This document shows, piece after piece, positions 13,506 to 23,691 of a stretch of DNA of 35,358 nt. The first letter of the stretch is position 1, and each line of letters begins with the position of its first letter. The position numbers and the translations under genes were made by a program. Location: assembly GCF_001719615.1 (NCBI RefSeq), contig NZ_MDVX01000037.1, positions 1-35,358 on the forward strand, in the 5' to 3' direction. This DNA is from Neptunicoccus sediminis (GTDB lineage: Bacteria; Pseudomonadota; Alphaproteobacteria; Rhodobacterales; Rhodobacteraceae). Below the pieces are notes generated by a model. It was given only the letters and a program-made list of their open reading frames with translations. It ran no database searches and was not told the DNA's origin.

Positions 13506-14510
13506 TTATAGCGTATCGCCAAGCTCCACATCCGGCTTGAACTCGATCACTTGGCGCACCGCACGGTAATCGGATTGCTCGTGTTCCAGGATCAGCTGTG
13601 CCGCCCGTTTCCCGATTTCAAACCTGTAAGCATTCATTGTGGCGGTCAGCATCGGCATCCCGTGGCGCAGGTCGAGCCCGTTAAATCCCGCCAGCCCAAG
13701 CTGATCCGGCACCGAGATATTGTTCATAATGCAATGCATCAGCCCGCCACAGGACATGGTGTCCGATGAATAGTAGATCATGTCCAGATCCGGCGTCCGC
13801 TCAAGCAGCTTCTCGGTAAGCTGCCTACCCAGCAACAGGGTTGATCCCCCTGTGTACAGTTCCTGATCCGCAAGGGTCACACCAGCCTCGCCCAAGGCTT
13901 TCTGAAACCCCTCAAACCGTTTCGCGGCTCGATGATCCAGTGGGTATTTCGTACCGATAAAGCCGAGCTTTTTGTATCCGCGCTCCAGTATCGCCTTGCC
14001 GGTTTCATAGCCTGCCCGGCGATGGGAGACGCCAACATTCAGATCCACCGGATCGCCGTCCACGTCCATAATCTCGACAATGGGGATACCGGCGTTCTGC
14101 ATCATTTTGCGCGCGGCATCGGTATGCTCCAATCCGGCAACCACCAACCCTTTGGGCTGCCAGCTCAGCATTTCTCGAATAACGGTTTCCTCGGTCTCCA
14201 GATCATAATCCGACACACCAAAAACGGGCTGCATGGTGGTGGTCTTCAGAACGTTAGAAAGCCCGGTTAAAACCTCTGCAAAAACAAAACTGCTGATGGA
14301 CGGCACCACCACCCCCACCAGATCCACCGATTTGGAACTCAGCGACCCTGCGATCCGGTTGGGAACGTAACCAACTGATTTTGCGGCCGCCAGAACCCTC
14401 TCGCGGGTCACGGCAGAGGCTTCTCCCTTGCCCCGCAACACGCGACTGGCAGTCATTTCGCTTACATTTGCGAGCTCTGAAATATCTTTGAGGGTTGGCC
14501 TGCGCGCCAT
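13506..14510 (-). CDS. LacI-family transcriptional regulator (GntR-like sugar-acid type)
   Basis: 334 residues. An N-terminal helix-turn-helix and hinge (PTLKDISELANVSEMTASRVLRG, then GYVPNRIAGSLSS) is followed by a periplasmic-binding-protein-like effector domain (VGVVVPSISSFVFAEVL, GLAGFNGLDLRHGMP). Closest in style to gluconate-operon repressors, but the effector cannot be fixed. It lies between glnA (convergent) and sufS (upstream, same strand), with no sugar genes in the window, so its targets are elsewhere or it is autoregulated through the repeats upstream. ATG preceded by AGGACAA. Confidence 0.9.
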   Translation of the reverse strand: MARRPTLKDISELANVSEMTASRVLRGKGEASAVTRERVLAAAKSVGYVPNRIAGSLSSKSVDLVGVVVPSISSFVFAEVLTGLSNVLKTTTMQPVFGVSDYDLETEETVIREMLSWQPKGLVVAGLEHTDAARKMMQNAGIPIVEIMDVDGDPVDLNVGVSHRRAGYETGKAILERGYKKLGFIGTKYPLDHRAAKRFEGFQKALGEAGVTLADQELYTGGSTLLLGRQLTEKLLERTPDLDMIYYSSDTMSCGGLMHCIMNNISVPDQLGLAGFNGLDLRHGMPMLTATMNAYRFEIGKRAAQLILEHEQSDYRAVRQVIEFKPDVELGDTL

Positions 14511-14651: not shown

Positions 14652-15872
14652 TCAGTTGAAAAGCTCGTTGCAAAGCTCCAGCGCACTGACCAGTTTGTCC
14701 ACTTCCTCGGTGGTATTATACATTCCGAAAGAGGCGCGACAGGTGGCCGAAACCCCCAGATGTTCCATCAAAGGCTGGGCGCAGTGATGCCCTGCCCGCA
14801 CCGCGATCCCCCGTTGGTCAACCACGGTGGAAATATCATGCGGGTGGGCGGCCCCTTCCAGCGTGAAAGAGAAAATCGCGCCTTTGGTTTTGGAGTTGCC
14901 CTGAATGTTCAGCCAGTTCAATCCGGCTAGTTTTTCCTGTGCGTAATCGCGCAGCATGGTTTCATGGGCCGAGATGTTCTCCATCCCCACACCCATCATA
15001 TAGTCCAGCGCGGCGCCCAGCCCGATCATTTGCACAATACCAGGGGTGCCCGCCTCAAACTTGTGGGGTGGATCGTTATAGCTGACCGCGTCTTTGGCAA
15101 CTGTCCGGATCATATCGCCACCGCCAAAGAACGGGCGCATTTCAGCCTGACGTTCACGGCGGATGTAGATCGCACCCGACGATGACGGACCATAGAGTTT
15201 ATGACCCGTAATCGCGAAGAAATCCGCACCCAGATCCTGTACATCAACCGGCATATGCACAGCGGATTGGGAACCGTCCACCAGCACAGGAACACCCTTT
15301 TCACGAGCCGCTTTGGTGATGGTTTTTACATCAACCACGGTGCCCATCACATTGGACATTTGGGTGATCGCAATCAGCTTGGTCTTCGGCGTAATCCCAT
15401 CAATCACCGCCTGCGGGTCCAGATCGCCGTTCACATCGGTATCAACCCACTTCAGAACCACGCCCTGCCGTTCCCGCAAGAAATGCCAAGGCACGATATT
15501 GGCGTGATGCTCCATCACCGACAGGATGATCTCGTCTCCGGCCTGCAGGCGCGGAGCGGCCCAACCGTAGCTGACCAGATTGATGCCTTCCGTGGTGCCG
15601 GAGTTAAACAGGATTTCATCTTCGTGAGCCGCGTTTAAAAAGGTTTTAACCGTGGCGCGCACGGCTTCGTATTTCTCGGTCGAAAGATTCGACAGGTAAT
15701 GCAGCCCGCGGTGCACATTGGCGTAATCCTCGGCATAGCCCCGCGTCACCGCATCAATCACCGCTTGGGGTTTTTGGGCCGATGCACCGTTGTCGAGATA
15801 GACCAGCGGCTTGCCATTCACCTCACGCGAGAGGATGGGAAAGTCGGCGCGGATTTTCTGGATGTCGTACAT
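14652..15872 (-). CDS. sufS: Cysteine desulfurase SufS (group II)
   Basis: 406 residues, PLP enzyme that takes sulfur from L-cysteine for Fe-S assembly. The PLP Schiff-base lysine is K225 (AITGHKLYGPSSSG). The catalytic cysteine is C378 in ATCRASFGMYNT, the short-loop arrangement of SufS rather than IscS. The N-terminal IRADFPIL and HRGLHYLS are typical. It is the last gene of the suf unit and starts 2 bases after the stop of the upstream Yip1-like gene, so translation is probably coupled. No SufE or SufU partner is seen in the window. Confidence 0.97.
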   Translation of the reverse strand: MYDIQKIRADFPILSREVNGKPLVYLDNGASAQKPQAVIDAVTRGYAEDYANVHRGLHYLSNLSTEKYEAVRATVKTFLNAAHEDEILFNSGTTEGINLVSYGWAAPRLQAGDEIILSVMEHHANIVPWHFLRERQGVVLKWVDTDVNGDLDPQAVIDGITPKTKLIAITQMSNVMGTVVDVKTITKAAREKGVPVLVDGSQSAVHMPVDVQDLGADFFAITGHKLYGPSSSGAIYIRRERQAEMRPFFGGGDMIRTVAKDAVSYNDPPHKFEAGTPGIVQMIGLGAALDYMMGVGMENISAHETMLRDYAQEKLAGLNWLNIQGNSKTKGAIFSFTLEGAAHPHDISTVVDQRGIAVRAGHHCAQPLMEHLGVSATCRASFGMYNTTEEVDKLVSALELCNELFN

Positions 15873-15874
15873 GG

Positions 15875-16471
15875 TTATTTCACCGTCTGCATAGGAAGTG
15901 TGGCGCCCATTATGCTGAACAGCAACAACATCACGAACCCGAGGGCAAGTTGCACCCCTATGATACCAAGTAATACGGGCATGATTTTCGTAAAGCCGTG
16001 AAGCTCCATAACCTGTGCGGTAATCTGGATCATCGCAACAATCAGCACCAGAAGCATAACAAGCCCCGAGGTTTCAGCACTGTGCAATGTCGCAAAAGGC
16101 ACCGGTATCTGGACGAGAAATAGAACGAAGTTCAGCCAGATCACGGTTTTCAGACTGTTGTCGAAATCCCCTGTTCCGCCGAATGCGCGACCGACCCGAT
16201 ACATCAGAAACGCCCCGCCAAACAGTGTCAGGGCCAGCATGACTACACTGCTGCCAAGGGGGAGCGATTCCGCCTGCCCGACCGCTTCGGGATAGATCAG
16301 CAGGCCCGCCAGAAGGGAAAACATCAGGTTCAGAACGATCACGAACCAACCGGCGAGGATGATCTCGTTCCGGTTGGCCGGTATGGCCAGAATCTGGCGC
16401 AACGTGGCCCGGGGTTGGGTCAGCGACTGGATTGCCAATGGCACAAAATCAATCAGTCGCTGTGGGGTCAT
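15875..16471 (-). CDS. Yip1-family membrane protein (third of three, next to sufS)
   Basis: 198 residues with about five hydrophobic segments (for example AGWFVIVLNLMFSLLAGLL, VMLALTLFGGAFLMY, VIWLNFVLFLVQIPV). The short N-terminal cytosolic stretch QSLTQPRATLRQILAIP followed by the membrane bundle is the pattern of Yip1-domain proteins. Overlaps the upstream Yip1-like gene by four bases and is followed 2 bases later by sufS. No catalytic residues are evident. The role is unknown; the tight packing suggests a membrane function linked to Fe-S assembly, but this is inference. Confidence 0.8.
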   Translation of the reverse strand: MTPQRLIDFVPLAIQSLTQPRATLRQILAIPANRNEIILAGWFVIVLNLMFSLLAGLLIYPEAVGQAESLPLGSSVVMLALTLFGGAFLMYRVGRAFGGTGDFDNSLKTVIWLNFVLFLVQIPVPFATLHSAETSGLVMLLVLIVAMIQITAQVMELHGFTKIMPVLLGIIGVQLALGFVMLLLFSIMGATLPMQTVK

Positions 16472-17133
16472 CCGATCATATCTCCTGCACCGACCAGCAA
16501 TGTTGCTACGGTTAAAACGAGTGCGAACAACGACATAGCCATGAACGTCGGGCTTGTCATCCGGAATTTATGGGCTTCTGCGGTCCCTGCTGCAATATAC
16601 CACACGAAAGGGATCAAGCCGAGCCAGTAGACCGGCAAAGCCAGCCATTTATTGCCCAGAAACGGCAGTGCCGGTTCATACATGCCCATCACAGCCGCAA
16701 TGACTGCGGCGGCCAGACCGAAGGGCGCAGAAACAAATGCCCCCCAGAACACCGCCGTGCGGGTTTCCTTCCAGCTTGCAGCGCCGTTGAATATTCTGGC
16801 AACCACCTGAACCACAAGGGAAAACAGATACATCAACGCGGTGCGCAACATCAGCGCCGCCATCATCAACAGACCGATTTTATCCGCCGAAATGATCCCG
16901 CCCGCGATAGAGGCCGGTGCCACCAGCGTTTTCAGCGACCAACTGGCGAAAAACACCATATCAGAGACGAGAACATAGAAAATCAACCGCCCTTCGCTGG
17001 GCCTTTCACGCAACAGCCTACGGGTAGAACTGCGCATATCGCGCCAGGCATCACTGACCCGATCGACGAGTCCATTGCGTTCAAGTTGAAAAACGCCGTT
17101 ACCGGCTTCGAATTCGTCTTCGGAATGTGTCAT
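16468..17133 (-). CDS. Yip1-family membrane protein (second of three)
   Basis: 221 residues. A hydrophilic N-terminal region of about 45 residues (VSDAWRDMRSSTRRLLRERPSE) precedes about five hydrophobic segments including LMMAALMLRTALMYLFSLVV and WGAFVSAPFGLAAAVIAAVM. The motif FNGAASWKETRTAVFWGAFVSAP parallels FGGQATWQEARLALMWAALVTAP in the preceding protein, so the two are probably paralogues. It starts 39 bases after the upstream Yip1-like gene and overlaps the next by ATGA. Confidence 0.8.
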   Translation of the reverse strand: MTHSEDEFEAGNGVFQLERNGLVDRVSDAWRDMRSSTRRLLRERPSEGRLIFYVLVSDMVFFASWSLKTLVAPASIAGGIISADKIGLLMMAALMLRTALMYLFSLVVQVVARIFNGAASWKETRTAVFWGAFVSAPFGLAAAVIAAVMGMYEPALPFLGNKWLALPVYWLGLIPFVWYIAAGTAEAHKFRMTSPTFMAMSLFALVLTVATLLVGAGDMIG

Positions 17134-17172
17134 ATGCCCGCTCTGTTTTTTATGTTGTTTATCAACACTTAA

Positions 17173-17670
17173 TCAGGCCGTGACCCTGCGGGGAAATTCA
17201 ACTGTTGCAAGACATAAGGCCCATTGCCAGCAGAAGACCACAGCGGTGAGCAGTGTGGCAACCCAAAAAACCGGAGGCGGTGCAAAGACTTTGGAAGCGC
17301 CGCTGATCAGCACCAGTGGCGCTGTCACCAATGCCGCCCACATCAAGGCCAACCGTGCTTCCTGCCATGTGGCCTGCCCGCCGAACGGCCGCAGGACCAG
17401 ATGGGACAGCGCCGCAATGATATAGAGAAACAGCGGTCCCATAATCACCGAAGATACAAACAGCGTGGCAAAACGCGCACGCATCATGGCCGGATCATCT
17501 TCGGCCAGAAAAGAGATGGCCGCCAGATCCGGCATCCGCGACACATAGTTCAGAAAACAAGCGGTGAACCCCAGCATCAGAATGCGGGGCTCTGTCATAA
17601 TAGACACCTGATGGGCCATTTCACGGCGCGGCCCGCGATAGGCCGCGCCAATATCTGCCAGCAACGACAT
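17173..17670 (-). CDS. Yip1-family membrane protein (first of three, after sufD)
   Basis: 165 residues. A short N-terminal cytosolic segment is followed by four or five hydrophobic stretches (MLGFTACFLNYVS, LFVSSVIMGPLFLYIIAAL, LMWAALVTAPLVLI, FWVATLLTAVVFCWQW). FGGQATWQEARLALMWAALVTAP matches the conserved loop of Yip1-like bacterial proteins. The start used is the ATG that overlaps the sufD stop in TGATG. An upstream in-frame start at 17694 would only lengthen the overlap. Function unknown. Confidence 0.78.
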   Translation of the reverse strand: MSLLADIGAAYRGPRREMAHQVSIMTEPRILMLGFTACFLNYVSRMPDLAAISFLAEDDPAMMRARFATLFVSSVIMGPLFLYIIAALSHLVLRPFGGQATWQEARLALMWAALVTAPLVLISGASKVFAPPPVFWVATLLTAVVFCWQWALCLATVEFPRRVTA

Positions 17671-18944
17671 CAGCCGTGCCGCCGCGCCATCCAACCTTCG
17701 AGCAATGCCCGCAGATCGTCAGCCAGCGTTTCGTCTTCCACTTCGTCGATGGCTTCGCCAAGGAAGGCCAGCGTCAGCATGTCCTGCGCCTCTTTGTGGG
17801 GAATCCCCCGCGAGGTCAGATAGAACAGCGCTGTTTCGTCAATCGCGCCAACGGTAGAACCGTGGGAACAAGCCACATCATCGGCGTAGATTTCCAGCTC
17901 CGGTTTGGCCTGAAAGGTGGAATCCTCATCCAGCAGCAGACCCTGACTGATCTGGTAGCCGTCGGTTTTCTGCGCATCCGGTTTCACCAGAATCTTGCCC
18001 TGAAACACCCCAACAGCCCCGTTGCGCAGGACTTTCTTGAACACCTGACGGCTTTCACAGTTGACCGCATCATGGGTGACAAAAACCGTGTCATCATGAT
18101 GGAAGGCCCCGTCACCGGCACAGGCGCCAGCAACTGTGGCATGGGCATCATCGCCGGTAAACTCGATGATCGCGTCATTGCGTGTCAGCACACCGTTCAC
18201 CGTCAGGGTGAAGGATTTAAAGCTGCTTTCGGTGCCAAGCCGTGTGAAAATATGGGTCGCAGTGCGGCGTTCGTGGTCCCGCCCTTGGGCGCGCACGTGA
18301 TGGAACGCCGCTTTATCCGCAACTTCCACTTCCATAACCGCATTAATCCGCGCCGCTGCCGGCCCGTTTTCCAGAACTGTCAGATCCGCCCCTTCGTCGA
18401 GCTTGATCGTGTGGTGGATCACCGCGTCGGAGGTTTCGCTTTCGTGCAGATAGATAAAGCTGACCGGCTTGGCTGCTTTACCTGTTGCACGGATCACGAA
18501 ACCCTGTTCTGCCATGGCCGTGTTATAGGACGCCAGCGGACGGGACACAGGGTTCTGGCCCCTGCCCTCTAGCACGCCGTAAACCGAACCGGCCCAGTGA
18601 ATATCCTTCTGCGCCGCATCCGCCAGCGTTTCGATTTCAACACCGGCCAGTTCCAGTGCATCGGATTGTGCGGCGTCATAGACACCGTCCACAAACACGA
18701 TCTTCACCGCATCGACATCGGCAAACGGCAGGGCTTCGTCGCTCTCAAAGATCGCAGCCGGTGTTGCTTCCGGTGCGGTCAGCGTGGACGGATCGGTGTA
18801 TTTCCAATACTCGTCCCGACGGTGGGGCAGACCTGTTTCCGACAGCAGATCTGCAGCGGTTTGACGGGCCGTTGTGACCCATTTTCCGCCTTCCGGCACG
18901 GTAATAGAGGGCACGACGCCCTTGTTTTTCAGCTTGGCAGACAT
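17670..18944 (-). CDS. sufD: Fe-S cluster assembly scaffold component SufD
   Basis: 424 residues. Partner of SufB in the SufBC2D complex, where clusters are assembled in the cytoplasm. The C-terminal beta-helix core is recognised by YADDVACSHGSTVGAIDETALFYLTSRGIP, in which the His of CSHG is the residue implicated in SufD function. HRRDEYWKYTDPSTL marks the N-terminal region. The start is the ATG one base after the sufC stop (TAAAATG). A frame extension of 15 residues into sufC is not used. Its stop overlaps the Yip1-like gene. Confidence 0.96.
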   Translation of the reverse strand: MSAKLKNKGVVPSITVPEGGKWVTTARQTAADLLSETGLPHRRDEYWKYTDPSTLTAPEATPAAIFESDEALPFADVDAVKIVFVDGVYDAAQSDALELAGVEIETLADAAQKDIHWAGSVYGVLEGRGQNPVSRPLASYNTAMAEQGFVIRATGKAAKPVSFIYLHESETSDAVIHHTIKLDEGADLTVLENGPAAARINAVMEVEVADKAAFHHVRAQGRDHERRTATHIFTRLGTESSFKSFTLTVNGVLTRNDAIIEFTGDDAHATVAGACAGDGAFHHDDTVFVTHDAVNCESRQVFKKVLRNGAVGVFQGKILVKPDAQKTDGYQISQGLLLDEDSTFQAKPELEIYADDVACSHGSTVGAIDETALFYLTSRGIPHKEAQDMLTLAFLGEAIDEVEDETLADDLRALLEGWMARRHG

Positions 18945-18945
18945 T

Positions 18946-19701
18946 TTACGCCACCTCTGCCAGAATATCGGTGTAGCCGTTGTTTTCAACTTCCAGAGCC
19001 AGCTCCGGCCCGCCGGTTTTCACGATTTTGCCGTCAGCCATAATGTGCACCACATCCGGTTTGATGTGGTCCAGCAGACGTTGGTAGTGGGTGATCACAA
19101 GGAAGGAGCGGCCTGCGTCCCGCAGGGCATTCACGCCATCGGCCACCAGCTTCATCGCATCCACATCAAGACCGGAGTCAGTCTCGTCGAGGATACACAT
19201 TTTCGGTTCCAGCATCGCCATTTGCAGTATCTCGTTGCGCTTTTTCTCGCCACCGGAGAAACCGACGTTCACAGGGCGTTTCAGCATATCGGCGTCGATT
19301 TTCAGGGACTTCGCCTTTTCGCGCACTACTTTCAGGAACTCGGCCGCGCTCAGCTCTTCCTCGCCACGGGCCTTGCGCTGTGCGTTCACGGCGGTGCGCA
19401 GGAAGGTCATGTTCCCTACACCGGGAATTTCAACCGGATATTGGAACGCCAGAAACAGACCGGCTGCCGCGCGTTCTTCGGGTTCCATATCCAGAATATC
19501 TGTGCCTTCCAGTTCTGCAGAACCGTCTGTTACCTCGTACCCGTCCTTACCGGAAAGAACATAAGACAGCGTGGATTTACCTGAACCGTTCGGCCCCATG
19601 ATCGCATGGACCTTACCGGATTCCACAGTCAGGTTCACCCCTTTGAGGATTTGCTTGTCCTCATCTTCAAGTTCGACGTGCAGGTTTTTGATTTCCAACA
19701 T
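18946..19701 (-). CDS. sufC: Fe-S assembly ATPase SufC
   Basis: 251 residues, an ABC-type ATPase that drives conformational change in SufB-SufD. Walker A MGPNGSGKSTLS, the unusual SufC signature VGFSGGEKKRNEI, Walker B CILDETDSGLDVDA and the H-motif VITHYQRLL are all present. GGATAAT lies before the ATG. It sits between sufB (69 bases upstream) and sufD (1 base downstream). No anomalies. Confidence 0.98.
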   Translation of the reverse strand: MLEIKNLHVELEDEDKQILKGVNLTVESGKVHAIMGPNGSGKSTLSYVLSGKDGYEVTDGSAELEGTDILDMEPEERAAAGLFLAFQYPVEIPGVGNMTFLRTAVNAQRKARGEEELSAAEFLKVVREKAKSLKIDADMLKRPVNVGFSGGEKKRNEILQMAMLEPKMCILDETDSGLDVDAMKLVADGVNALRDAGRSFLVITHYQRLLDHIKPDVVHIMADGKIVKTGGPELALEVENNGYTDILAEVA

Positions 19702-19770
19702 TTTATTATCCTTGATTATAGCAGTGCCGCCCCGCAGGTGCGGCGAATTTCGAGTGTCCGGCGGGCTGGA

Positions 19771-21282
19771 TCAGCCCACCGATCCTTCCAGAGAAATGGC
19801 AACCAGCGCCTGTGCTTCCATTGCAAATTCCATCGGCAGCGCCTGCAACACGTCCTTACAGAACCCGTTCACCACCAGCGCCACAGCTTCTTCTTCATCC
19901 ATGCCCCGCTGACGGCAGTAGAACAGTTGATCGTCGTCCACTTTGGACGTGGTCGCTTCGTGTTCAACCCGTGCGGAGTTGTTCTTGACTTCGATGTAAG
20001 GCACTGTATGCGCACCACATTTATCCCCGATCAGCAAGCTGTCACATTGGGTGTAGTTCCGCGCATTCTGGGCTTTAGGGTGCATAGAGACCAGACCACG
20101 ATAGGTGTTCTGCGCCTTGCCCGCGCTGATGCCTTTGGACACGATCCGGCTCTTGGTGTTTTTACCCAGATGGATCATCTTTGTTCCGGTATCGGCCTGC
20201 TGCATGTTGTTTGCGATGGCGATGGAGTAGAACTCTCCCTGACTGTCGTCGCCGCGCAGGATGCAAGACGGGTATTTCCACGTCACCGCAGAGCCGGTTT
20301 CAACCTGTGTCCACATCACTTTGGAACGGTCGCCACGGCAATCGGCCCGTTTGGTCACAAAGTTATAGATGCCGCCCTTGCCTTCTTCATCACCGGGGAA
20401 CCAGTTCTGAACGGTGGAGTATTTGATTTCTGCATCGTCCAGAGCCACCAGTTCCACCACAGCCGCGTGCAACTGGGCGATGTCCCGTTGGGGCGCCGTA
20501 CAGCCTTCGAGGTAGGATACATAGGACCCTTTTTCCGCGACGATCAGCGTGCGTTCAAACTGGCCGGTGTTTTCTGCGTTGATGCGGAAATAGGTGGACA
20601 GTTCCATCGGACATTTGGTGCCTTCAGGGATGTAGACGAACGATCCGTCGGAAAACACGGCAGAGTTCAGCGTCGCATAGTAGTTGTCCGACTGCGGCAC
20701 CACAGTCCCGAGGTATTTCCTAACCAGTTCGGGGTGATCCTGAATAGCCTCGGAAATCGAACAGAAGATCACACCGGCTTTGGCCAGTTCATCCTTAAAG
20801 GTTGTGCCCACAGACACACTGTCAAACACCGCATCCACCGCAACGCGGCGATCGCCTTCGGGGGCTTCCACACCCGCCAGCAACGCCTGTTCCTTCAGCG
20901 GGATACCCAGTTTCTTGTAGGTTTCCAACAGCTTGGGGTCTACCTCATCGAGGGATTTCGGTTTCTCGATCATGGATTTCGGACGGGCATAGTAATACTG
21001 GTCCTGAAAATCAATTTTCGGGTAATCCACCATCGCCCATTCCGGTTCTTCCATCTGCAACCAGCGACGATAGGCAGTCAGACGCCATTCCAGCATCCAT
21101 TCCGGTTCGTTGTTCTTTTCCGAGATCAGGCGCACGATGTCTTCGTTCAACCCTTTCGGGGCGTATTCCATCTCGATGTCGGTTTCAAAACCGTATTTGT
21201 ACTTTCCACCCACGGATTGAACCGCCTCGACGGTTTCCTGATCGACACCTTCTTTGACTTGTACGTCGTCTAAAGCAGCCAT
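19771..21282 (-). CDS. sufB: Fe-S cluster assembly scaffold SufB
   Basis: 503 residues. Main scaffold of the SufBC2D complex, receiving sulfur and iron. The C-terminal region carries [24 protein letters not shown], containing the conserved cysteine in FYCRQRGM that accepts persulfide, and the Glu of [40 protein letters not shown] is also diagnostic. The start used is the ATG at 21282 ([12 protein letters not shown]), with GAGGA 8 bases upstream. The frame stays open 24 more codons without family support. Confidence 0.98.
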
Positions 21283-21311: not shown

Positions 21312-22355
21312 CTAGGCTGCGCGGGCTATGAATTTCCTGTATCGGGCCAGCCAAGCATCGGCAAACCCCATCACTTCGTCGCGGGTGGTGGCGGGGCCAA
21401 AGCTGACCCTGATCGCAGAACCTGCGGTCGTATCGTCAAAGCCCATGGCCTTCAACACCCGACTTTGCTTTACCTTGCCACTGGAACAGGCCGACCCTGC
21501 CGAAATGGCATATCCGGCCAGATCCATCTGCATGACCTGCGTTTCGCCCTTCCAACCCGGAACGGCGATGCAACTGGTATTGGGCAGACGACTGGTCTCC
21601 TGCCCGATGATTACGGCCTCCGGCGCGTCTTCGGCAATCCGGGCCTCCAGCGCATCGCGCAGGGTCTGGACCTCTTGCCACAGGCCCCGATCAAGGTCCC
21701 GTTGCGCGGCTTCGGCCGCCGCTCCAAATCCGGCGATACCGATCACATTCTCGGTTCCCGACCGCCGCCCCTGTTCCTGCCCGCCACCTTTCACCAGTGT
21801 CGGGACATCGTGGCCCTGTTGCAAAACAACCGCGCCAATCCCTTTGGGACCGCCGATCTTATGGGCCGACAACAGGGCAGCCTTGGCACCGGACCATTCA
21901 AAGGCTAAAGGAACCTTGCCAAAGGCCTGCACCGCATCACACAGAGCTATGGATTCAAATCCGCTTTGCAAGATGCCGGTCTCACTGTTGGCAGCTTGCA
22001 GCGCCGAAGTTTCGGGCGATGTGACCTGCACAGCGCCGTCTGCATCCACTGGTAGGTCAGGGTCGCACCACGCGTGAACGGCATCGTGTTCGGTTGCCCC
22101 GCAGGCCACACCGCCACGGTTCAGCACCAGACCAGCGCCTTCGGTGGCGCCGGATGTGAACACCACATCGCCCGAGCCGACCCCGAAAGCCGCTTTGATC
22201 TGCACCCGAGCACGTTCGACAATAGCCAGCGCCTTGCGGCCTTCGGCGTGAACGCTCGACGGGTTGCCGATGGCATCCATCGCCGCAATTATCGCATCCC
22301 GCGCCTCATCACGAAGGGGGGCGGTTGCGTTCCAATCCAGATAGGTCCGGTTCAT
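21312..22355 (-). CDS. Cysteine desulfurase, IscS/NifS-like (group I), short form
   Basis: 347 residues, PLP-dependent. Schiff-base lysine K166 ([12 protein letters not shown]) and catalytic cysteine C290 in the longer [21 protein letters not shown] loop place it in group I, unlike the downstream SufS. It is shorter than housekeeping IscS (about 400) and lacks the IscU-binding C-terminal tail, more like NifS-type proteins next to iscR in alphaproteobacteria. Its ATG overlaps the iscR stop (ATGA), so the two are co-translated. It probably supplies sulfur to the same machinery; the division of labour with SufS is unknown. Confidence 0.93.
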
Positions 22356-22843
22356 TTTTCACCCACCGGAGTTTCTTCCACCAGCTTTTCATCGACAAGT
22401 TGGAACAAGGAGGGCACCGCGGGACAGGGCGCCATCTGGTTGGTGATGATGTCGCTCAGGCGGGCCTGATGCAGAAAGACATAGACATGGGCCGACAGGC
22501 TTTCCCAAAAGCGGTTGGACAGACTCTGGGCCCGCGACCCCGAAGACGCACCGGATGCCCCTGCGCCCTTGCTGAGCGCGTCCATCGATTCATCGACCGC
22601 TTCAAGGATCAATGTCACGCGGATCGCATCAGCAGATTCGGCCAAGCGATAGCCGCCCCCCGGCCCGCGTACGCTCTCAACGATTCCCGCGCGGCGCAGT
22701 TTAACGAAGAGCTGCTCCAGATAGGCCAGAGAAATATCCTGACGGGCTGCGATCTCGCCAAGCGAAACAAGCCCGCCCTTTGATTCCAGCGCCAGATCAA
22801 CCAGGGCAATCAGGGCATATCTGCCTTTTGTACTGAGTTTCAC
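22352..22843 (-). CDS. iscR: Rrf2-family Fe-S regulator (IscR-like) lacking the usual cysteine triad
   Basis: 163 residues from a GTG start (VKLSTKGRYALIALVDLA), the normal Rrf2 N terminus. The frame is open 28 codons further but has no family-like sequence. The winged helix reads ISLAYLEQLFVKLRRAGIVESVRGPGGGYRLA. IscR normally holds a 2Fe-2S cluster through three cysteines around residues 92-104; here that stretch is KGAGASGASSGSR with none, and the only cysteine in the protein is C140 (MAPCPAV). First gene of the suf operon, so it most likely controls it. IscR of Rhodobacter is reported to use an atypical ligation, which fits. Confidence 0.92.
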   Translation of the reverse strand: MKLSTKGRYALIALVDLALESKGGLVSLGEIAARQDISLAYLEQLFVKLRRAGIVESVRGPGGGYRLAESADAIRVTLILEAVDESMDALSKGAGASGASSGSRAQSLSNRFWESLSAHVYVFLHQARLSDIITNQMAPCPAVPSLFQLVDEKLVEETPVGEK

Positions 22844-23037: not shown

Positions 23038-23691
23038 ATGCCTGAAGTAATTTTTCCCGGACCTGACGGTCGCTTGGAAGGCCGCTACCATCCGCAAAAG
23101 CAAAAAGATGCGCCGATTGCGATCATCCTGCACCCGCACCCCCAGTTCGGCGGAACGATGAACAACAAGGTTGTTTATAACCTGCATTATGCGTTCCACA
23201 AAATGGGCTTTACTGTTCTGCGCTTTAACTTTCGCGGTGTTGGCAAAAGCCAGGGCGAATATGATCAGGGCGTCGGTGAACTGTCCGATGCGGCCTCGGC
23301 ACTTGATTACCTGCAAGCGATGAACCCCAACGCGAAACATTGCTGGGTCGCAGGTTTCTCCTTTGGCGCATGGATCGGCATGCAACTGCTGATGCGGCGT
23401 CCGGAAATTTCGGGGTTTATCAGCGTGTCGCCCCCTGCGAATATGTATGATTTCTCGTTCCTCGCCCCTTGTCCGGCCTCCGGTCTGATCATCAACGGAT
23501 CAGGCGATCGTGTGGCACCGCCTGCAGACACGGTGGATCTGGTGGAGAAACTGCACGAACAGAAAGGCATCACCATCACCCACGAGGTTCTGGAAGGTGC
23601 CGGTCACTTCTTTGAGAATGACCACATGGATACGATGATTGACACGGTTGACGGCTATGTGCGCCGCCGCTTGACGGAAACCAGCCGTTAA
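23038..23691 (+). CDS. Alpha/beta hydrolase
   Basis: 217 residues. Nucleophile elbow GFSFG with S108, acid D157 (NGSGDRVAP) and H190 (GAGHFF) form the expected triad. HPHPQFGGTMNNKVV carries the oxyanion-side HPHP motif, and RFNFRGVGKSQG is typical of this small cytoplasmic family, often annotated as dienelactone-hydrolase-like or alpha/beta superfamily hydrolase. No signal peptide. It is divergent from iscR, with the promoter region of the suf operon between them. Substrate unknown. Weak ribosome-binding site (CGGAG, 12 bases before ATG). Confidence 0.9.
   Translation: MPEVIFPGPDGRLEGRYHPQKQKDAPIAIILHPHPQFGGTMNNKVVYNLHYAFHKMGFTVLRFNFRGVGKSQGEYDQGVGELSDAASALDYLQAMNPNAKHCWVAGFSFGAWIGMQLLMRRPEISGFISVSPPANMYDFSFLAPCPASGLIINGSGDRVAPPADTVDLVEKLHEQKGITITHEVLEGAGHFFENDHMDTMIDTVDGYVRRRLTETSR

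Follow-up and report, generated by a model that had tools for sequence, protein, structure and literature searches.

The Rhodobacterales genomes that we sampled carry genes for Yip1-family membrane proteins at a fixed place in the isc-suf operon, between sufD and sufS. The usual state of this junction is an old pair of genes, here called YipA and YipC, and the three genes found in Neptunicoccus sediminis are a copy-number variant of that pair. The association of Yip1 genes with suf is already in print, as Nie et al. (2019; PMC6956336) described two Yip1-family proteins in the isc-suf operon of R. sphaeroides and an arrangement that is highly conserved in Rhodobacteraceae. To this we add the three-gene variant and its scarcity, the finding that the association stops at the limits of the order among the genomes sampled, the separation of two old groups of paralogues, and a junction that stays fixed while another in the same operon varies. 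By analogy with other Yip1-family proteins, we tentatively favour the reading that these proteins act as a membrane adaptor that docks SufBCD and/or SufS, to which we assign a probability of roughly 0.35.

The isc-suf operon and its three Yip1 genes

The window, by which we mean the whole analysed stretch of 35,358 nucleotides from contig NZ_MDVX01000037.1, carries the operon on its minus strand. The operon begins with an iscR-like regulator gene (22352..22843), which was identified as an open reading frame in the position known from the published operon and for which a GTG start is assumed. This gene is followed by an IscS/NifS-like cysteine desulfurase gene (21312..22355; Aminotran_5, E 4.9e-32), whose top NCBIfam model is NifS at a score below the cut-off, and by sufB (19771..21282; TIGR01980, 631.2 bits, above the cut-off), for which an inner ATG was taken as the start. 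Next are sufC (18946..19701; TIGR01978, 362.7 bits, above the cut-off), which encodes an ABC-type ATPase, and sufD (17670..18944), which scores 219.3 bits against TIGR01981, slightly below the cut-off of 222, and matches SUFBD_core with an E-value of 2.6e-66. The three membrane genes come after sufD, and the cysteine desulfurase gene sufS (14652..15872; TIGR01979, 537.3 bits, above the cut-off) closes the series. The published Rhodobacteraceae isc-suf gene set is thus present on one strand of the window, with iscR recognized by position and reading frame. A LacI-type-regulator-like ORF (13506-14510) lies after sufS on the same strand and before glnA. On the other side of the operon, a hydrolase-like ORF (23038-23691) is divergent from the iscR-like gene and occupies the place of RSP_0444 in R. 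sphaeroides, where an antisense promoter has been described (PMC6956336).

All three membrane genes lie on the minus strand. They are YipA (17173..17670; 165 aa from its ATG), YipB (16468..17133; 221 aa), which is an extra family copy closest to the YipA group, and YipC (15875..16471; 198 aa). The preliminary description of this DNA had noted three Yip1-like membrane genes between sufD and sufS, and this is confirmed because all of them exceed the curated cut-off of 28.6 bits of the Pfam family Yip1 (PF04893), at 32.6 bits for YipA, 34.8 bits for YipB and 43.7 bits for YipC. Furthermore, a search of the whole genome at E <= 0.001 returned exactly these three proteins as Yip1 matches. The NCBIfam models gave one weak match for YipC (16.9 bits, where the cut-off is 188) and zero matches for YipA and YipB.

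The tight coupling of these genes to their neighbours, which had also been described, is read directly from the sequence. The stop codon of sufD and the start codon of YipA have one base in common in a TGATG (17668..17672, minus strand), the stop of YipB overlaps the start of YipC in an ATGA (16468..16471, minus strand), and 2 bases separate YipC from sufS. The spacing of 39 bp between YipA and YipB was absent from that earlier account. The paralogous loop attributed to at least two of the proteins is likewise real, and it reads FGGQATWQEARLA in YipA and FNGAASWKETRTA in YipB, with a weaker counterpart, FGGTGDFDNSLKT, in YipC. This GG loop recurs in both the YipA and the YipC alignments of the order; therefore, the loop alone is no mark of a recent duplication, and a reading of it as such a sign is ruled out.

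Yip1/YIPF proteins are described as having five transmembrane segments (PMC6682643). We read five segments in the AlphaFold2 model of YipC (pLDDT 93.1), and four segments together with basic N-terminal helices in the model of YipA (pLDDT 95.9); both models are confident. Crude hydropathy counts for the window proteins are 3 for YipA, 6 for YipB and 5 for YipC. The counts of Lys and Arg suggest that the N-terminus and the GG loop are cytosolic.

According to Remes et al. (2015; PMC4618611), the R. sphaeroides genes RSP_0433 and RSP_0432 were named a putative sulfate transporter, and RT-PCR was performed across selected junctions; to judge by the locus numbers, both are located between sufD and sufS. 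The R. sphaeroides operon resembles that of the window in that two co-transcribed Yip1 genes accompany iscR, iscS, sufB, sufC, sufD and sufS (PMC6956336, PMC4618611). However, RSP_0439 stands between sufB and sufC in R. sphaeroides, whereas the window has 69 bp there (19702-19770) and carries YipB as a third gene. In Caulobacter, the operon continues after sufS with a SUF system protein and SufA (PMC11475020). Elsewhere in the genome of the window, we found one SufE, two A-type carrier and two SufT-type (FeS_assembly_P) matches, and the trio is therefore no obvious stand-in for a missing soluble part. One SufT-type gene, two A-type carrier genes and one SufE gene lie on another contig of this genome (G000 contig C55, 408927-480273), outside the window.

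The sufD-sufS junction within and outside the order

A Pfam Yip1 match was present in 117 of 121 genomes sampled from the order of the window. We read the junction in 87 order genomes, which comprise the window, 80 genomes whose selection was biased because it required a Yip1 match, four genomes without a match and two with a weak match; 34 of the 117 genomes with a match fall outside this reading. At least one membrane gene stands between sufD and sufS in all 87 genomes, with two genes in 77, one in seven and three in three, and one of the seven single-gene genomes has YipC only. The four genomes that lack a Pfam match (G058, G064, G079 and G109) might have been taken as gene-less, but each of them has membrane ORFs at the junction. 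In three of these four, tblastn with the YipA of the window produced matches, and the junction gene of G064 (locus L165) was called from its position and hydropathy.

A second set was assembled from the 80 highest-ranking among 590 confirmed matches to a SufD profile that was itself built from order members, and this set contains only Rhodobacterales and two organisms labelled Alphaproteobacteria. Every one of its 80 loci has at least one gene at the junction (a pair of genes in 78 and a single gene in 2), including the single-gene locus L200, in which YipA was found by reading the frames. The two sets overlap in organisms, and their counts are not additive. The preliminary description had proposed a survey of Yip1 neighbourhoods beside sufD and sufS across Rhodobacterales and had named restriction of the adjacency to one strain as the outcome that would speak against it. 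The adjacency is instead widespread in the sampled order (87/87 genomes and 80/80 SufD-profile loci), and this order-wide survey rules out the trio as an oddity of one strain.

The spacing at this junction is nearly constant. The gap between sufD and sufS measures 800-1300 bp in 76 of 81 order loci and in 78 of 80 SufD-profile loci. The first membrane gene overlaps sufD in 53 of 81 and 46 of 80 loci of the two sets, respectively, and the reading frames of YipA and YipC overlap at 66 of the 76 loci that have two genes. Elsewhere in these operons, the sufB-sufC gap, which could be measured in 81/81 and 79/80 loci, ranges from <150 to >2500 bp. Other sequence comes and goes at this sufB-sufC junction across the order (loci L034-L113 and L169-L248). 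Because sequence turns over at one junction of the operon while the other remains nearly fixed, simple hitchhiking of random genes into the sufD-sufS gap is unlikely. The gap between iscR and iscS was measurable in 72 of 80 loci of the SufD-profile set.

Outside the order, the picture is different. We directly read 40 loci of the class, drawn from 89 genomes outside the family that have a SufD match, and none of the 40 has a Yip1-type gene in the gap between sufD and sufS, which spans approximately 20-150 bp in 38 of them. Two of these loci, L126 and L131, have ORFs between sufD and sufS that we read as glyoxalase-type and GNAT-type; therefore, the junction accepts inserts outside the order too. 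At the class level, 12 of 143 genomes have a Yip1 match, three of which are the genome of the window and two members of its family, so that 9 of 140 remain once the family is set aside. Five of these nine genomes also have a SufD match, and none of the five has Yip1 within 100 kb of SufD on the same contig. The search of the phylum returned a Yip1 match in 82 of 199 genomes, order members included, and no suf gene lies within 1.5 kb at the 30 Yip1 loci that were kept from it, all outside the order, except for one marginal sufS match (E 0.083). Yip1 proteins are thus common elsewhere, but they are away from suf in the sampled genomes. A core component of the SUF system would be expected to accompany sufD and sufS in all organisms that have Suf, and the Yip1 genes do not show this pattern. 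Most simply, the Yip1 pair arrived on the branch leading to the sampled Rhodobacterales.

Paralogue groups, divergence and selection

We built a midpoint-rooted tree from 63 proteins that represent 32 of the 81 loci. In this tree, the proteins encoded at the first position (YipA) and those encoded at the last position (YipC) are split with a support of 100/100. The YipB of the window pairs with the YipB of locus L051, and the two adjoin the YipA group. Of the three single genes in the tree, those of loci L034 and L077 fall with YipA and that of L087 falls with YipC. Only nine genomes from 4 genera, out of 341 order genomes, matched a YipB profile at E 1e-12, and the trio is thereby ruled out as the usual state. 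All nine genomes have the order sufD, YipA-like gene, YipB, YipC-like gene, sufS, which in one case is spread over two contigs. Among the same-genus genomes listed, four of seven have YipB, and G008, one of those that do not, has a single gene of the YipA type. According to tblastn, the first gene is closer to YipB than to YipA in G109, G537 and G508.

The two Yip1 proteins diverge rapidly. Across the 76 two-gene loci, the mean pairwise identity is 88% for both SufB and SufC, 78% for SufS and 70% for SufD, and it is 46% for YipA and 28% for YipC. YipA and YipC are shown to be under purifying selection. The dN/dS values of 12 hand-picked pairs, which are rough because many dS values exceed 1, are 0.06-0.21 for YipA (9 pairs gave a value), 0.08-0.46 for YipC (12 pairs) and 0.04-0.09 for SufD (10 pairs). 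The partial distance correlation between YipA and YipC is 0.28 over 70 loci, which is the top value for either protein, and the corresponding values are 0.18 for both YipA-SufB and YipA-SufD, 0.20 for YipC-SufS and 0.16 for YipC with the IscS-like protein; these correlations are given as raw values whose significance was not assessed.

Candidate roles of the Yip1 proteins

Anchoring of SufBCD at the membrane was among the possibilities raised in the preliminary description. We tentatively favour such an adaptor because of the fixed and often overlapping position of the genes and because of two analogies. The first analogy is YknW of Bacillus subtilis, a Yip1-family membrane protein that modulates the assembly of the ABC-type complex YknWXYZ (PMC4338810, PMC4887032). 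By description, YknW is similar to the proteins studied here in being a bacterial Yip1-family protein encoded with a complex that contains an ABC-type ATPase, although YknWXYZ exports a toxin peptide and includes both a permease and a fusion protein, whereas SufBCD is a cluster scaffold. The second analogy is the eukaryotic YIPF family, in which two kinds of Yip1-domain proteins pair (PMC6682643, PMC13398756) and form alpha/beta complexes (PMC6682643). However, the YIPF proteins reside in the Golgi, whereas YipA and YipC are encoded in a bacterial Fe-S operon, and the YipA model has four transmembrane segments rather than five. Visual inspection of the alignments of YipA and YipC did not reveal the three Pro-containing motifs of YIPF proteins (D-L/F-x-G/I-P and others; PMC6682643).

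In the proposed adaptor, YipA and YipC, with YipB as an additional subunit where it is present, would form a hetero-oligomer in the inner membrane, and this oligomer would be made in step with SufD by means of the overlapping start. The basic N-terminal helices and the GG loop, both presumed to be cytosolic, might then dock soluble SufBCD and/or SufS at the membrane, which could either aid the assembly of SufBCD and SufS or bring the site of cluster synthesis close to Fe-S clients in the membrane. In the usual description, SUF assembly is a soluble process. In addition to the fixed junction, the evidence in favour of the adaptor includes the retention of the genes in the sampled order against 0 of 40 class loci outside it, the paralogue split, the purifying selection, the correlation between YipA and YipC, and the Lys and Arg counts. 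Several observations count against it. YipA and YipC diverge far faster than SufB, SufC, SufS and SufD, which would be surprising if they were tightly bound to a conserved core; a single gene is enough in 7 of the 87 genomes, so that the pair is not obligatory; and the class relatives that were read beyond the order possess SufD and SufS but no Yip1 gene at the junction. Moreover, the correlations are raw values, and YipC also correlates with SufS and the IscS-like protein. Finally, the open-licence PMC literature yielded no interaction, localisation or phenotype data and no functional test of these Yip1 proteins, which is no proof of their absence. A bolder version of the adaptor, which we regard as unlikely, is that Rhodobacterales evolved a dedicated Fe-S membrane platform, in which a hetero-oligomer of YipA and YipC, synthesized together with SufD, would hold the normally soluble SufBCD-SufS at the inner membrane and the ABC-type SufC would again have membrane subunits. 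If this were true, a whole lineage would tie cluster assembly to the membrane.

A possible but doubtful alternative is a general function in the membrane or envelope, in which the genes would be expressed together with suf during iron or oxidative stress and their products would have no contact with Fe-S proteins. The rapid divergence and the fluid copy number are consistent with such a role, as is the unequal anaerobic rise along the operon, which was 7.4-fold for sufBCD and 2.3-fold for sufS (PMC7728643). However, a general role does not readily account for the fixed junction and the frequent stop/start overlap with sufD, which differ from the changing gap between sufB and sufC. Another proposal, which we consider rather improbable, is that the pair forms a small transporter or channel for iron, sulfide, cysteine or other sulfur species that is expressed with the operon. 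The earlier name of the R. sphaeroides genes (PMC4618611) points in this direction, and the profile of DUF1282 is similar to that of the sulfate permease family, with transport suggested for bacterial members (PMC6682643). The invariant residues of the alignments include Pro, Gly and Arg, and YipA has an invariant Arg. In addition, a Cys lies inside TM1 of YipA (Cys38, window 17557-17559) in 47 of 53 SufD-profile rows and in 27 of 38 rows of the order alignment. In the SufD-profile set, 38 of 53 YipA rows have a His in TM2, and a His is also found in 45 of 53 YipC rows. Few conserved charged or metal-binding residues lie within the membrane, however, and no Cys or His is invariant in the YipA or YipC alignments of either the order or the SufD-profile set, which argues against transport. 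Searches of solved structures returned zero matches both by sequence (PDB, E up to 10) and by fold (E up to 0.001), and this result neither supports nor excludes a transporter.

The same residues bear on the proposal that the pair hands finished clusters to membrane apoproteins or itself binds a cluster. The operon position, the frequent YipA Cys and the near-invariant His158 of YipC (35 of 37 rows) would fit such a role. Despite these two residues, the lack of any invariant Cys or His weakens the case for cluster or metal binding, Cys occurs in at most 7 of 53 rows in any YipC column, and the conserved Cys/His ligand set expected of a Fe-S carrier or scaffold is not found in YipA or YipC. We therefore regard cluster handling as very improbable. 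Equally slight is the chance that the genes act mainly in cis, with the overlapping frames setting the ratio of SufD to SufS and the proteins mattering little. The frequency of the overlaps, both at the start of the first gene and between YipA and YipC, agrees with this idea; the dN/dS values well below 1 and the invariant residues, however, show that the proteins themselves are under selection.

The main text of the R. sphaeroides Tn-seq study (PMC5513736) contains no Suf result. A 2019 review of the YIPF family (PMC6682643) states that prokaryotic members lacked any reported function, although YknW had been described by then. Clarifying the role of the suf-associated proteins would also tell what one bacterial branch of the Yip1 family does. 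Yip1 proteins have also been described in bacteriocin clusters (PMC11580447).
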